DNA of 37,165 nucleotides, taken from Lachnospiraceae bacterium (lineage in GTDB: Bacteria; Bacillota; Clostridia; Lachnospirales; Lachnospiraceae). The DNA is taken from assembly GCA_024694625.1 (NCBI GenBank), contig JAILJP010000026.1:1-37165 (forward strand), in the 5' to 3' direction. A model generated the notes under the pieces. That model searched no databases. It was not told the DNA's origin and worked only from the letters and a program-made list of their open reading frames with translations. The translations under genes and the position numbers were made by a program. Shown here in pieces: positions 3,815 through 37,165 of the stretch (its first letter is position 1; each line of letters begins with the position of its first letter).

Positions 3815-3887
3815 GCAATTCCTCTTTCCTAATTTAAAAATAAGCTGTGGATATTTTATCACAAATATATACTTAACAATAGTACTT

Positions 3888-3952
3888 AGGGACGGTTCTT
3901 TTGTCTTCATTTTTATGATAGAGAAAAATGAGGACAAAAGAATGTACCGACC
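3888..3952. repeat. Inverted pair of GGGACGG-family repeats forming a long hairpin
   Basis: A plus-oriented copy (3888-3914, AGGGACGGTTCTT onward) and a minus-oriented copy (3924-3952) are separated by 9 nt. About 19 bp pair (TTCTTTTGTC-TTCATTTTT against its complement) with one G-T pair. Further short relatives lie directly to the right (3961-3980 and 3982-4010), so this intergenic region between the secreted-protein gene and dnaE is essentially made of this repeat family. Confidence 0.75.
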
Positions 3953-3981
3953 TTTATTTTCCCCAAAAGAACCGTCCCCGT

Positions 3982-4010
3982 AAAAAAATGAGGACGGAAG
4001 AACCGTCCCC
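3982..4010 (-). terminator. GGGACGG-family repeat acting as terminator of the PPC-domain gene
   Basis: Read on the minus strand: GGGGACGG, loop TTCTT, CCGTCCTC, then ATTTTTTT. The stem pairs at 7 of 8 positions and is followed by seven T. It begins 7 nt after the stop codon of the secreted-protein gene. A nearly identical unit ends the next gene upstream (5208-5236). Confidence 0.75.
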
Positions 4011-4016
4011 ATAAAC

Positions 4017-5207: not shown

Positions 5208-5236
5208 AAAAAAATGAGGACGGCAGAACCGTCCCC
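5208..5236 (-). terminator. GGGACGG-family repeat acting as terminator of the EF-hand-like gene
   Basis: Minus-strand stem GGGGACGG / CCGTCCTC with a 5-nt loop, followed by ATTTTTTT. It lies about 30 nt after the stop codon at 5269. It differs from the copy at 3982-4010 by a single base within the unit, which points to recent duplication or gene conversion. Confidence 0.75.
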
Positions 5237-5268
5237 ATAAACAGCTTATTCAGAAAGGTTACATTTTG

Positions 5269-16606: not shown

Positions 16607-17467
16607 TTATCTGCCTTCGCGAACAACTTTCATTGTTGCACAGAAATCTTCTTTTCCAAGGCCCATTTCAAGAGCTTTGTCATAGACACGAACAGCATTT
16701 TCTTCACCGGGCATATCCACACCGCATTCCTCTGCTAACTTCAAGCAGATATGAACGTCCTTGTGCTCATTTTCAATAGAAAATGCAGTGGTATAATCTT
16801 CTTTTGCCAAAACATCCTTTTTCGAATCCAAGTACCAGTTTCCGGCACCGCCATAGGAAATTGCTTCTGCGTAATTCAAGATATCAATGCCGTTTGCCTT
16901 TGCCAAGGTAGCGGTTTCGTTTACACCATTTTGAATCTGAGAAACCAATGCATTGTGACAAATCTTCATAACAAGACCTTTTCCGTTGTCACCCATGCGA
17001 ATTACATTTTCGCCCATGTAAAGTAAAATCGGGCGCATATCCTCATAAGTCTTTTCATCACCACCGACATAAATTCCAAGCTTTCCGGCAATTGCTGCAG
17101 GTTTGGATTTTACTACAGGGGCATCAATAAACTGTGCACCGGTCTTTTTCACCATTTCTGAGATTTCCACAGAAACAGAAGGATCGATGGTAGACATATC
17201 AATACAAGTCTTAGAAGCATCCAATACAGGAAGAACTTCCTTGTAAACGCTCATAGAATGCTCAGACTTTGGTACCATGGAAATAATAACATCCACCTTT
17301 TCAGCTACTTCCTTTGAAGAGCTGCAAGCCTTAGCACCCTTGGATTCCAAGATGTCTACCTTTTCCTTTACAAAATCAAAGACGTAAACGTCGTCGTCGT
17401 GTTTCTTTACAATGTTTTCTGCCATGGACTCACCCATGATTCCTAATCCAATAAATCCAATTTTCAT
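16607..17467 (-). CDS. Beta-hydroxyacid dehydrogenase, candidate sulfolactaldehyde reductase (YihU-like)
   Basis: A 286-residue NAD(P)-dependent enzyme. The dinucleotide motif GFIGLGIMGESMAENI is at residues 4-19, and the substrate loop DAPVVKSKPAAIAGKLG replaces the usual DAPVSGG. The catalytic-lysine helix is GKGLVMKICHNALVS. Loss of SGG with gain of a basic residue resembles YihU, the sulfolactaldehyde reductase, where this loop reads DVPVGRTS. In the working model it reduces 3-sulfolactaldehyde to dihydroxypropanesulfonate for export. Tartronate-semialdehyde or 3-hydroxyisobutyrate activity cannot be excluded. TAGGAG precedes the start. Unlike every other junction of the operon, it is separated from the upstream gene by 482 nt of structured repeats. 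Confidence 0.82.
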   Translation of the reverse strand: MKIGFIGLGIMGESMAENIVKKHDDDVYVFDFVKEKVDILESKGAKACSSSKEVAEKVDVIISMVPKSEHSMSVYKEVLPVLDASKTCIDMSTIDPSVSVEISEMVKKTGAQFIDAPVVKSKPAAIAGKLGIYVGGDEKTYEDMRPILLYMGENVIRMGDNGKGLVMKICHNALVSQIQNGVNETATLAKANGIDILNYAEAISYGGAGNWYLDSKKDVLAKEDYTTAFSIENEHKDVHICLKLAEECGVDMPGEENAVRVYDKALEMGLGKEDFCATMKVVREGR

Positions 17468-17494: not shown

Positions 17495-17627
17495 CGGCTG
17501 GCTTTTGGCATATCACGTCGGCACCGAGGTTTTATACATGTTTTCCTCGGAGCCGCTCTGCGGTGTCTCTCGGAAAACCAGATAAAACCTCTTGTACCAA
17601 CCACGAAACGTATAAAGCCACCCAGCG
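17495..17627. repeat. Long hairpin element B (short member of the structured-repeat family)
   Basis: Nested inverted repeats: CGGCTGGCTTT (17495-17505) against AAAGCCACCCAGCG (17614-17627); a perfect 10-bp pair GAGGTTTTAT / ATAAAACCTC (17526-17535, 17582-17591); a perfect 7-bp pair GTTTTCC / GGAAAAC (17540-17546, 17572-17578); and an apical CCGC-TCT-GCGG (17553-17563). On the minus strand the apical part reads TTTCCGAGAGACACCGC and CTCCGAGGAAAA. These modules recur in the two larger elements. It lies upstream of the dehydrogenase gene; I see no coding potential. Confidence 0.7.
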
Positions 17628-17657: not shown

Positions 17658-17935
17658 CCCGCGGACGGGTTAATATTTGGTGGAAACCAAGTGATATTTC
17701 ACCCTTTACCGAGAAGACACCGCGGAACTTTCGGAATATCCGTCGTACAGCCGTTCAGCTCACGACTTTAGGAGTGAGCACTACGGATGTTCGACTAGGT
17801 GCGGGTGTCCAGTGGACACCTCTGCGAAGCAGAAGCACGGACCGAGTCGGTAGACGAGAAAAGAAAGTGGAGACGGTGCCGAGGGAAAGGTGTGAAATGT
17901 CACTGGTTTCCCTTAAAAATCCCCCGTCCGCCGGG
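17658..17935. repeat. Structured-repeat element A with 48-nt conserved core
   Basis: The ends are inverted repeats (CCCGCGGACGGG at 17658-17669 against CCCGTCCGCCGGG at 17923-17935), and the pairing continues inward for about 50 nt on each side (GGAAACCAAGTGATATTTCAC at 17682-17702 against GTGAAATGTCACTGGTTTCC at 17892-17911). The interior holds hairpins ATCCGT...ACGGAT, GCTCAC...GTGAGC, GGTGTCC-AGT-GGACACC, TCTGC-GAA-GCAGA and CGAGTC...GACGAG. Positions 17799-17846 match the complement of 36830-36877 at 47 of 48 bases. There is no credible gene; open frames across it only translate the repeat. It interrupts the operon between the transaldolase and dehydrogenase genes. Confidence 0.75.
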
Positions 17936-17949
17936 AAGCAAAATCGTTA

Positions 17950-18636
17950 TTAGTTTCCTGCTGTATTGTCCCATGCATCCTGGAAGGTCTTCATACCCTG
18001 ATCTGTAAATGCATGATGCATAGCGTCCTTATAAACAGCAAGTCCTGCAGTTACACAATCAGCACCAGCAACAGCGCAGTCTACAAACTGCTTAGGTGAA
18101 CGGATTGCTGCGCAGATGATTTCTGTTTCTTCCAAGAAACCATAATTTGCATAGATATCTACAATATCCTGGATATACTGCTTGCAGTCTTCACCGTTTT
18201 GCTCTTTCCAGCCAATGAAAGGAGATACAAACTTACATCCGTATTTTCCTGCAAAAAGTGCCTGTGCAGGAGAGAATACCAAGGTAAGGTTGGTACGGAT
18301 TCCTTCTTTTTCCAACTTACGAGCTGCGGTACAACCAGCTTCTGTACAAGGGATCTTAATTACAAAACATTTGGAAAGAGCAGAAATCTCACGAGCCATC
18401 TTAATCATTTCATCCGCATCGTCCAAATGAGGATTTACCTCTACGGAAATCGGGAAATCATTGTAATCTTCAAATCCCTGTTCTTTTGCCCAATCAGCCA
18501 TATCCTTAATAGCTGTCATAAAAGGCTTTCCGGATAGCATAATATGTTTGGGGTTTGTGGTAACACCATCAATACCAAATGTTTCATAAGCTTCCTTAAT
18601 TTCATCCAATTTTGCACTGTCTAAAAAGTATTTCAT
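17950..18636 (-). CDS. sftT: Small transaldolase (TalC/MipB family), candidate sulfofructose transaldolase
   Basis: A 228-residue class I aldolase-fold enzyme. The N-terminus MKYFLDSAKLDEIKEAY and TTNPKHI are typical of the family. The Schiff-base lysine lies in FVIKIPCTEAG, followed by GIRTNLTLVFSPAQALFAG. The phosphate-site segment is SPFIGWKEQNG, where ordinary relatives have SPFVGRLDD, so the phosphate-gripping Arg is a Trp (codon 18208-18210). That agrees with a substrate other than a sugar phosphate on the donor side, such as 6-deoxy-6-sulfofructose in the sulfo-TAL pathway known from Firmicutes. The start at 18636 has a perfect GGAGG at 8 nt; the ATG at 18651 overlaps that site. The symbol rests on operon context. 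Confidence 0.85.
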   Translation of the reverse strand: MKYFLDSAKLDEIKEAYETFGIDGVTTNPKHIMLSGKPFMTAIKDMADWAKEQGFEDYNDFPISVEVNPHLDDADEMIKMAREISALSKCFVIKIPCTEAGCTAARKLEKEGIRTNLTLVFSPAQALFAGKYGCKFVSPFIGWKEQNGEDCKQYIQDIVDIYANYGFLEETEIICAAIRSPKQFVDCAVAGADCVTAGLAVYKDAMHHAFTDQGMKTFQDAWDNTAGN

Positions 18637-32478: not shown

Positions 32479-32495
32479 CCTATTAGGCATCCTAT

Positions 32496-32521
32496 TAGGG
32501 ACGGTTCTTTTGTCTTCACAA
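32496..32521. repeat. GGGACGG-family repeat, left partner of a perfect 26-bp inverted pair
   Basis: TAGGGACGGTTCTT onward. It is the exact reverse complement of 33861-33886. The stop codon of the acetyltransferase gene (32516-32518) lies inside it. The internal stem of the terminator-type copies is lost here (TTTTGTC instead of CCGTCC). Confidence 0.85.
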
Positions 32522-32985: not shown

Positions 32986-33811
32986 CTAATTCGCAGCGAG
33001 ACAATAAATAATAATTGCCTGCTGGACTTTCAATAAATTCTTTTTAAACTCATATCCCACAAAGTACTTTGAATCCAAAACTCCATTTGATAGTTCTTCC
33101 CCTCTGTAAAAAGGCGGACAAGGATTTAGGATTGCATTGCTGTTGGCCTGTTTCATCAAGTCTTCATCAATCTGATAATTCTTAAAGTTCTCTGTCATAT
33201 TTGAAGGAATAGAATCTGTGCATATAATATCCTTTCCTACAATTGCCTCCTTCAAGTCCTCATTACAATTTACCCCCGGTATTTGATAAGCAGGGGGCGC
33301 ACATTGCGAAAGAGAAAAGCCAAAAGCCTCTGACGCTTCCTTCCAAGCTCTTCCAATATTTCCATCTGCTCCTACAAAAAAATACTCATCCTCAAGAAAA
33401 TTCGATCTAATTTTTGAAAAGGTATATATCAGACAACATTTCACACGGATGATTTTCATCCGTCAATGCATTTATAACTGGAGCTTTCATAAATTCAGCC
33501 ATTTTTTGGATCAGATGAATATCTCTATGTCGAACCACAACTGCATCTGCCCAGTTTTGAAGATAACCACAAACATCCCTTATATCTTCTTTTTTATCCA
33601 AGGCAGAAGAATCAAAGAGTATGGACTGTCCACCGAGAAGATATATTCCCTTTTCAAAAGAAACTCTGGTTCTAATACTAGCAGGTGGGAAAAACATCAC
33701 AATCGTCTTCCCCTTCAAAAATTCCTCATAATTTTCTATAGAATCAGCAATTCGAAAAATCTCAAACAATTCTTCCTTTGAAAAATCTGTTAATCTTACA
33801 AATGAGTTCAT
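32986..33811 (-). pseudogene. Frameshifted aspartate/ornithine carbamoyltransferase-like gene
   Basis: The first part reads MNSFVRLTDFSKEEL, the carbamoyl-phosphate loop SIRTRVSFEKG (STRTR in relatives), DIRDVCGYLQNWADAVVVRH and NHPCEMLSDIY, then hits a stop near 33407. The second part, in another frame, continues YTFSKIRSNF, FVGADGNIGRAW and NPCPPFYRGEEL to 32986. One lost TA unit in the short TA run at about 33423-33430 explains the shift exactly. Restored, the product would be about 275 residues, somewhat short for the family, and lacks the usual HCLP motif (NPCPP here), so it may have been a divergent carbamoyltransferase. The start at 33811 has a GAGAGGA site. Confidence 0.82.
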
Positions 33812-33860
33812 CTTAATTTCCTCTCTGATGGATAATTCATTTTCCTTCAAACAATTATAG

Positions 33861-33886
33861 TTTGTGAAGACAAAAGAACCGTCCCT
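33861..33886. repeat. GGGACGG-family repeat, right partner of a perfect 26-bp inverted pair
   Basis: Exact reverse complement of 32496-32521. It overlaps the stop codon (33885-33887) of the polyferredoxin gene and lies 50 nt upstream of the carbamoyltransferase pseudogene start. Confidence 0.85.
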
Positions 33887-34712
33887 ATAATGCTCCTTTC
33901 GGGCAATTCTTCACACATTCCATGCATAAAATACACTCAGTTCCGTTTTTTCTTTTTCTGGAATTGTCGGTAACATCCACCTCCATGGGGCAAACCCGCT
34001 TGCATTTTCCACAATGAACACATTTCTCCTCATCACATTGAATCCGTATCAGAGAAAAATAACTCATAGGTTTTAAAAATACGGTAATGGGGCAAATATA
34101 CTTACAAAATGCACGGTTATCTTTACACACAAAAGCCAGTATAATCCCCACCGCATAATAAAGCACGTTTCCAATCACAAAAGCCCAAAACATAATCCTC
34201 TCAATATTTCCCACCTTGGCAAGGAACAAAGCTGATACAAAAATCAGAGAAATACCAAAAGCAATATATCGTATCCAGCCAAGCTTTTTTTGGGGCTCCT
34301 GTAGTGTCTTATAGGGTAAAAAATCCAGCACCATGGCTGTCCAACAGGCAAATCCGCACCATCCTCTTCCAAAGATAAGGGGACCAAAAATTTTTGCAAC
34401 TGCATAATGAATGGTAGCTGCTTCGAATACTCCGGTAAACAAATAATACCAAAGTCCTTCGATTTGCATATTTTCTCTACATATAAAACCTAAGTAAACC
34501 AGCATATACAAACCAACCAATAGCTGAACCACTCGTCTGGCATTCTTGTAATTTTGAATCAGCAAAAACATTCCTAAAGCAATAGACAATCCAATATAAC
34601 TGAAATTAAAAAGATAAAACAGGTTATCTTTCGTCTTCCATAAACTAATGGCCACTGTTTCAAAAATTGCCAGTATTAAAACCGGATATACGTATTTCTT
34701 TAAATGTCCCAT
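33885..34712 (-). CDS. NapH/YccM-like membrane polyferredoxin (4Fe-4S protein)
   Basis: A 275-residue protein with about six membrane helices. It has a family motif GRGWCGFACWTAMVLD (a variant of GRVWCGWxCP) and FCKYICPITVF. At the C-terminus there are two ferredoxin clusters (CVHCGKCKRVCP and CILCMECVKNCP), each CxxCxxCxxxCP, binding two [4Fe-4S] clusters on the cytoplasmic side. Such proteins pass electrons between quinols or ferredoxin and periplasmic or membrane reductases; the partner is not encoded here. The start follows GAGGG at 4 nt. Confidence 0.88.
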   Translation of the reverse strand: MGHLKKYVYPVLILAIFETVAISLWKTKDNLFYLFNFSYIGLSIALGMFLLIQNYKNARRVVQLLVGLYMLVYLGFICRENMQIEGLWYYLFTGVFEAATIHYAVAKIFGPLIFGRGWCGFACWTAMVLDFLPYKTLQEPQKKLGWIRYIAFGISLIFVSALFLAKVGNIERIMFWAFVIGNVLYYAVGIILAFVCKDNRAFCKYICPITVFLKPMSYFSLIRIQCDEEKCVHCGKCKRVCPMEVDVTDNSRKRKNGTECILCMECVKNCPKGAL

Positions 34713-36527: not shown

Positions 36528-36610
36528 TATTTATGCTCCCCTAGAACACTAATTGAAAGTATGCGTATTATCGCAATGTTTGTCAACACATTGTGGAGTT
36601 TTGTTGTTTT

Positions 36611-36636
36611 GTGGGCGGTTCTTGCGTCTTCATTTT
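36611..36636 (+). repeat. Degenerate GGGACGG-family repeat beside element C
   Basis: GTGGGCGGTTCTTGCGTCTTC followed by ATTTT. It matches the AGGGACGGTTCTTTTGTCTTC copies at most positions. It directly abuts the left end of the structured element at 36637. Confidence 0.6.
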
Positions 36637-36985
36637 GCCAAGAACTCGGGGATTAATTTATACTCGGGTGGGCTGGAGCTATATATCTCTGTTTGCATGA
36701 GAGTATTACTGCTTTCCTCCGCACCGACTCCGCTCTACCTCATCCCGGTGAATGTCTGTAAAGTCCTGAGCTCGTAAACGGCTCAGGCCAACAGACATAC
36801 ACAGTGCATTGCGTGGTCTCGCCTTTCGGCTCGGTCTGTGCTTCTGCTTCGCAGAGGTGTCCACTGGACACCCGCACCGCTCCGCGGATGTCTGTCGGAA
36901 AGCAGTAATACGCTCCATGCAAATGCGATAATAAATAAGCAGTCCACCCGTGCGTAAAGTATCAGAGCGCGCCCGAGTTCTTGGC
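36637..36985. repeat. Structured-repeat element C bounded by 14-bp perfect inverted repeats
   Basis: The ends are GCCAAGAACTCGGG (36637-36650) and its exact complement (36972-36985). Pairing continues inward: CGGGTGGGCTG (36665-36675) against CAGTCCACCCG, and 36695-36717 against 36897-36920 (23 bp with few mismatches, including TATTACTGCTTTCC). Inside, 36788-36798 pairs with 36888-36898 (11 bp, one G-T), enclosing the 48-nt core (36830-36877) with its hairpins. It occupies most of the gene-free stretch 36528-37165, where I find no other gene. Confidence 0.75.
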
Positions 36986-37085
36986 AAACATTTTTTCTGC
37001 GGTGTTTCCTGAATGCGGGCTATGGGCTCCGGCAAACCGATTTGACGAGGAAGTATGATTTTTATGATTTATCTATGAAGAGTGA

Positions 37086-37152
37086 CTCGGCTGCAAGGAT
37101 GCAGACGAGAGAATTTGAGTGCAATGGATTGCACATCAAATTCGTTCACGAA
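37086..37152. repeat. Three tandem hairpins at the right edge
   Basis: CTCG-G-CTGCA-AGGA-TGCAG-A-CGAG (37086-37109), then GAATTTGA/TCAAATTC plus GTGCAAT/ATTGCAC with one bulged A (37111-37143), then TTCG-TTCA-CGAA (37141-37152). No T run follows on either strand within the window, so they are not ordinary terminators. They resemble a leader or a repeat unit of a gene beyond the edge. Confidence 0.5.
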
Positions 37153-37165
37153 AACAATCATTATG

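Follow-up and report, generated by a model that had tools for sequence, protein, structure and literature searches.

A short, probably mobile DNA module of Clostridia inside nested palindromes of a Lachnospiraceae genome

Introduction

Two long palindromic elements, A and C, on one contig of a Lachnospiraceae bacterium have almost the same middle, while their arms pair with their own partners and bear no resemblance to each other. What kind of element keeps its centre and changes its ends? The original prediction offered two answers, a large structured RNA or a folded single-stranded DNA substrate that moves or is copied. We analysed the whole stretch of 37,165 nt (the window), which is contig C11 of a 2.34-Mb draft genome (G000), and followed its repeats through related genomes, phages and plasmids. 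The 48-nt core of the two elements is very probably the heart of a 62–70 bp non-autonomous mobile DNA module of Clostridia, and A and C are copies that landed in a second repeat, here called the shell.

Results

Elements A and C

Element A is located between fsa (minus strand, stop at 17950) and a downstream minus-strand dehydrogenase gene (start at 17467), and element C lies close to the contig end. A repeat search of the window paired positions 17798–17859 with 36817–36878 (62 nt, opposite orientation, 92% complementary). Within this pair, the 48-nt core (17799–17846) differs between A and C by a single base (47/48 identical), as had been noticed at the outset. The conserved part is in the middle, which sets the elements apart from a classical MITE, also as predicted. 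Both fold strongly (–125.5 kcal/mol for A and –164.4 kcal/mol for C; z-scores –8.6 and –9.8, no shuffle reaching either), and their arms are long, self-complementary and dissimilar between the elements. A tRNA search of the window returned none. The elements consist of the following parts (window coordinates; X denotes a hairpin within the shell).

17658–17935, minus strand: element A, a composite nested palindrome (outer hairpin, arms, shell, X hairpin and core)
17797–17859, minus strand: core mobile module of A, TCTCGTCTACCGACTCGGTC followed by CGTGC[hairpin 1][hairpin 2]CGCACC (covariance model R1, G000:C11:17797-17859, 89.9 bits)
17708–17796, minus strand: 3′ half of the A shell in minus-strand reading, X hairpin GAACATCCGTAGTGCTCAC...CGGCTGTACGACGG and the TTCCGCGGTGTCTTCTCGG module (aligned with core-less shells L309, L310, L313, L317 and L319–L321)
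17860–17893, minus strand: 5′ half of the A shell, CTTTCCCTCGGCACCGTCTCCACTTTC (shell alignment)
17658–17707, no strand: outer arm of A, outermost stem CGCGGACGGG
17894–17935, no strand: partner outer arm of A, ending in CCCGTCCGCCGGG
36637–36985, plus strand: element C, a composite nested palindrome
36817–36879, plus strand: core mobile module of C, across the X hairpin from its position in A (R1, G000:C11:36817-36879, 89.2 bits)
36712–36816, plus strand: 5′ half of the C shell and X hairpin, TTTCCTCCGCACCGACTCCGC..CTCATCCCGGTGAATGTCTG..CAACAGACATACACAGTGCATTGCGTGG (sequence reading, shell alignment)
36878–36901, plus strand: 3′ end of the C shell, CGCTCCGCGGATGTCTGTCGGAAA (pattern match, 0 mismatches)
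36637–36711, no strand: outer arm of C, its inner part common to core-less shells L309, L317 and L319
36902–36985, no strand: partner outer arm of C

Several other features were observed nearby. ‘Element B’ (17495–17600), which adjoins A, is a core-less palindrome with shell-like ends (GTTTTCCTCGGAGCCGCTCTGCGGTGTCTCTCGGAAAAC) and a fold z-score of –2.6. An unrelated TwoAYGGAY RNA (RF01731, 50.2 bits) lies just downstream of C at 37042–37165 and is cut by the contig end. A second dispersed inverted repeat, GGGACGGTTCTTTTGTCTTCA, is present at 3886–4016, 5208–5242, 32495–32518, 33858–33892 and 36609–36632, and several core-less shells (L309, L317, L319) have it as their outermost arms. An ornithine-carbamoyltransferase-like gene on the minus strand (32986–33850) is apparently split into overlapping frames at 33407–33850 and 32986–33459.

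The shell and the core are separate units

G000 has 12 clear matches to a pattern taken from the shell, and three sister genomes (G001, G003 and G004) have one or two each. In at least eight aligned copies the core is absent (L309, L310, L313, L317, L319, L320, L321 and L308); core-less shells, with the layout TTTCCTCGGCACCGTCTCCGCT..CATCCCGGCGAACATCCGTAG..X..CGCTCCGCGGATGWCTGTCGGAAA, occur in G000, G003 and G004, and in partial form in G001. Where the core is present, it lies 5′ of X in A, L031 and L027, and 3′ of X in C and L023. The core also occurs alone, without shell or arms, in unrelated flanks. Since the core lies on either side of X in some shells and is missing from others, two mobile units were joined independently in A and in C. 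Each is a composite in which the shell, a palindromic repeat specific to the genus, carries the core as a mobile module of its own, and the pair do not represent one structured RNA.

These results change the initial picture of the elements in part. The inner modules common to A and C do match in sequence, but they do not form one fixed architecture, as the core occupies opposite sides of the X hairpin. The arms are indeed self-complementary and mutually dissimilar; those of C, however, are not unique to it, since its inner arms (..CGGGTGGGC..TTTGC..AGTAT..CTGCTTTCC / GGAAAGCAGT..) recur in core-less shells L309, L317 and L319 of the same genome. The arms likewise do not qualify as partners selected for the core, given shells without a core and cores without any arms; rather, the arms are nested host palindromes that received both core and shell.

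Sites without the composite were found in sister genomes at pheS-pheT, fsa and hbd, while the ilvD sites were too diverged; among these empty sites, only that of A gave an informative pre-existing hairpin. At the fsa site of G004 there is no insertion, just a short hairpin CGGCGGAC...GTCCGCCG that matches the outermost stem of A. The 9-mer match is expected in 12% of shuffles and is therefore weak alone. As both the match and its complement fall on the outermost stem of A, this element probably grew inside a resident hairpin. The pheS-pheT spacer contains a core-bearing composite in G000 and none in G003 and G004; in G001 (L282) a different nested palindrome occupies the same spacer.

Anatomy and covariation of the core module

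The module is about 62 bp long (62–70 bp, typically 62–65 nt), with a 53-nt subfamily that lacks hairpin 1. Its consensus is TCTCG-[YC TNYC GR]-CTCGGTC-[GGYGC T [hairpin 1][hairpin 2] C GCRCC], and its ends are G^TCTCG and GCACC^C(C/T), the caret marking the junction. A mini-hairpin with a 2-bp stem, variable in sequence and length, separates the invariant TCTCG and CTCGGTC. It is followed by a three-way junction made of the GGTGC/GCACC stem, the variable hairpin 1 and hairpin 2, whose tip CC-ACY-GG is conserved and whose stem varies. The terminal TCTCG.. and ..GCACC are not complementary; only the flanking G at –1 and C at +1 pair.

The stems covary strongly. Across 19 copies, 97.5% of cells are paired, eight of the 19 pairs have changed on both sides, and none of the 361 cells is a one-sided G-U step or has changed on one side only; in controls with slid alignments the pairing collapses. 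Among about 3,630 pairs in 206 unique copies there are 39 G-T and 26 A-C combinations, and G-U pairs of the arms are about equally frequent on the two strands (7.0% and 8.0%). As the stems covary with almost no G-U pairs, we conclude that their complementarity is kept at the DNA level.

This bears directly on the possibility of a large structured cis-regulatory or non-coding RNA, selected for sequence in the core and for structure in the arms. Such an RNA would account for the strong folds of A and C and for the many intergenic copies, some of which directly follow stop codons (fsa, pheS) or tRNA genes. It would be expected to tolerate G-U pairs on one strand, yet G-U intermediates are nearly lacking and G-T and A-C show no strand bias. 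Moreover, the copies have no gene context in common, the core and the shell each occur without the other, the core faces either way with respect to tRNA genes and also lies in frame within coding genes, and an Rfam search of the window, also at relaxed E, matched no family at A or C. This last result agrees with the initial impression that the element belongs to no named family. On the G-U statistics and the independence of the modules we rejected one large structured RNA, which we regard as highly improbable. Intergenic copies may still play a role at the RNA level, for example as terminators. Of the two ideas first proposed, a mobile, folded single-stranded DNA fits better, and its single-stranded intermediate is our inference.

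The loops of the module are in keeping with a folded DNA strand. In minus-strand reading, 190 of 191 mini-hairpins have a GNA or GNNA loop, as does hairpin 1 in about 123 of the 147 loops listed. Such loops with G-C stems belong to a class of extraordinarily stable DNA mini-hairpins (PMC4686876), and folding with DNA parameters favours the strand that carries them by 1.7 kcal/mol (–17.5 versus –15.8 kcal/mol). Neither strand gives a GNA loop at the tip of hairpin 2 (ACY), so the argument covers two of the three hairpins and provides support, not proof.

Distribution and copy number

A first query of 65 nt revealed copies in G000 and several relatives, and covariance model R1 was built from 19 core copies. 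With R1, 16 copies were detected in G000, and 64 of 299 Lachnospiraceae genomes had matches at E ≤ 1e-3, about two dozen of them strong ones. When Bacillota were sampled evenly, only G000 and one other genome reached E ≤ 1e-6; thus, the core is not general in the phylum. An exact degenerate pattern matched at least 120 GTDB stretches, nearly all from Clostridia (Lachnospiraceae, Ruminococcus, Ruminococcaceae, Eubacterium ruminantium and others), and 16 viral contigs, and blastn found the core in three phage records. The exact core pattern without ambiguity gave no matches, and PLSDB plasmids gave no match to the core. The hosts are Clostridia from gut and rumen, together with some phages of these bacteria. 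One match lies in a contig labelled Alistipes (L163, CANQGQ010000054.1), i.e. in a Bacteroidota MAG, and may reflect a phage contig or a binning error.

High-copy genomes carry from 32 to about 127 copies each, many of them identical; in several Ruminococcus-type or other Clostridia MAGs the number ranges from 43 to about 127. The further copies that the original prediction called for are therefore plentiful, with over 100 in some genomes. Since the genomes are MAGs, copy numbers and gene absences are lower bounds. Core copies also break assemblies, and many pattern matches lie at MAG contig ends.

Insertion sites

Among 151 junctions, G precedes the module in 72%, and C (85%) and then C or T (93%) follow it, with little information further out. 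No target-site duplication was seen at 144 sites, where a direct repeat of at least 3 nt at the junction occurs only twice. The flanks are complementary beyond chance at 16% of sites compared with 5.6% of permuted pairs; direct similarity of the flanks is raised about as much. Targeting of hairpins is thus a modest bias, and exclusive targeting of hairpins was rejected.

Copies within one genome either have only the module in common or are nested in repeats that are the genome's own and differ between genomes. The core sits inside TATAACCGCAAAGTATGTCCCCCGAG^..^CTCTAAGG in G351, CATTGCGAGGAG..GCAATCCGTG^..^..GGATTGCTTCGC..CGCAATGAC in G354, CTAAGGGGCAGCGAG^..^CCCCTTAG in G355 and CACCTCATCAGTCACC..GACAGCTTG^..^CCTCAAGGGGAAG in G197. 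Another repeat of G354 holds one to four cores in tandem, head to tail inside one host repeat in L273 (G354:C40), and in L173 and L183 cores are nested within other core copies. Other cores are single copies in unrelated flanks. Inspection of insertion sites revealed no cassette organisation.

Copies within genes

In gut phages, a C5-methyltransferase gene (PF00145) carries an in-frame module at the same site in four loci (L098, L089, L103 and L095), and the gene in L095 has a second in-frame site. Homologues without the module read through both insertion points, and comparison of filled and empty sites shows no duplication. In L146 an in-frame module splits the Toprim domain of TopB (topoisomerase III; PF01131/PF01751), and in L100 one lies in a protein of unknown family. 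In-frame modules add about 21 residues to conserved proteins. Since these clear coding insertions keep the frame open, translational bypass is not needed, and a bypass element was rejected. None of the six frames of the consensus contains a stop codon, but about 10% of shuffles are likewise free of stops, so this is weak evidence alone; about half of the unique copies are stop-free.

Copies beside tRNA genes

A tRNA gene lies within 400 nt of 25 of 51 Lachnospiraceae copies, mostly with the core in a T-arm copy adjoining the intact tRNA (GGTTCGA^TCTCG..GCACC^CCGTCTCGCGC, in either orientation). A tRNA-Lys-like copy in L044 (G180:C56) is interrupted by one hairpin in its anticodon loop and by a core module in its T-loop. 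In L034 (G000:C72) and L084 (G055:C10) an inverted copy comes after the tRNA-Leu 3′ end and its terminator, with a core-carrying direct copy behind it, a layout that looks like serial fold-back duplication and suggests fold-back synthesis as a side process.

It could be proposed that such local fold-back or template-switch replication makes and repairs the palindromes in general, and that the core spreads mainly by recombination between repeats. The perfect inverted copy after the tRNA-Leu terminator, the stems kept perfectly complementary and the tandem cores of L273 all agree with this. Yet identical cores in unrelated flanks, single in-frame copies in genes and the two positions in one shell require the core to have moved to new sites, and we consider recombination and fold-back an unlikely explanation for the core as a whole. 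Template switching may still account for some lengthening of the outer arms and for stems that stay exactly paired, but not for the jumps.

Discussion

Comparison with known repeats

The core works like two known types of palindromic repeat, RPEs and palindrome-nested REPs, without fully fitting the definition of either. RPEs are stem-loop-forming Rickettsia repeats of 105–146 bp with 12-bp terminal inverted repeats, found between genes, in frame within protein genes and also in RNA genes, and have no known mobilising enzyme (PMC2229807). Compared by description, the core resembles them as a small palindromic mobile repeat with intergenic and in-frame genic copies (two sites in the C5-methyltransferase, TopB and the L100 ORF). 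It differs in its length of 62–70 bp, its hosts (Clostridia and phages), its non-complementary ends, three-way junction and invariant TCTCG..CTCGGTC frame, and in often sitting inside other repeats. With MITEs the core shares small size, non-autonomy and high copy number, and shell and arms together form a long inverted repeat; unlike MITEs, the core has neither target-site duplications nor terminal inverted repeats.

REPs are described in PMC3733652 as single stem-loops of 20–40 bp with a GTAG or CGTC tag, reported from 8 phyla; some form dimers inside longer palindromes, some units are intragenic, and CGTC REPs have no known transposase. The strings ‘Firmicutes’ and ‘Clostridi’ are absent from the text of that paper. 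The core is likewise a high-copy short palindrome, with some copies within longer palindromes and some in genes. A REP element moved by RAYT, or by another IS200/IS605-type Y1 transposase acting on single-stranded DNA, would explain the small palindromic module, the lack of target duplication, the fixed orientation relative to a short flanking motif and copies inside other palindromes, as for some REPs (PMC3733652). However, the core module is about 62 bp long with three hairpins, and its ends are TCTCG and GCACC, with no GTAG or CGTC tag in the consensus. Moreover, PF01797 (Y1 transposase) is missing from 8 of 14 high-copy genomes, among them those with about 120, 116, 72 and 65 copies, and is present in most low- or no-copy relatives tested; incompleteness of the MAGs leaves a small loophole in this count. 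We rejected an association with the Y1 transposase and hold mobilisation as a REP to be improbable. Among the loci that were fetched, neither an autonomous copy nor an associated enzyme was seen. No earlier description of the core sequence was found in the open-access literature.

Proposed mechanism

The mobile-module reading may be put as follows. The core would be copied at the DNA level, most likely in the form of a folded single strand, and the copied strand would be the one reading GGTGCGGGTGTCC...CGAGA (the GGTGCGGG..CGAGA strand). A protein supplied in trans would mobilise it, and insertion would take place just 5′ of CC or CT without target-site duplication, often in or beside hairpins such as terminators, tRNA T-arms and other palindromic repeats. 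In G000, core copies would have landed at two positions of the genus-specific shell, itself within longer palindromes, giving rise to A and C. Landing at different shell positions within longer palindromes would leave the middle unchanged and give each copy different arms. We put forward only tentatively the fuller proposal of a widespread single-stranded DNA mobile hairpin of Clostridia and their phages that depends on an enzyme outside the IS200/IS605-RAYT group, spreads into hairpins and builds nested palindromes.

The family bears on how REP- and RPE-like palindromes move, and on what mobilises those that have no dedicated transposase. The core has tens to more than 100 copies, many of them identical, with sharp ends, filled and empty sites, copies in phages and two positions within one shell, and its movement is therefore directly testable.
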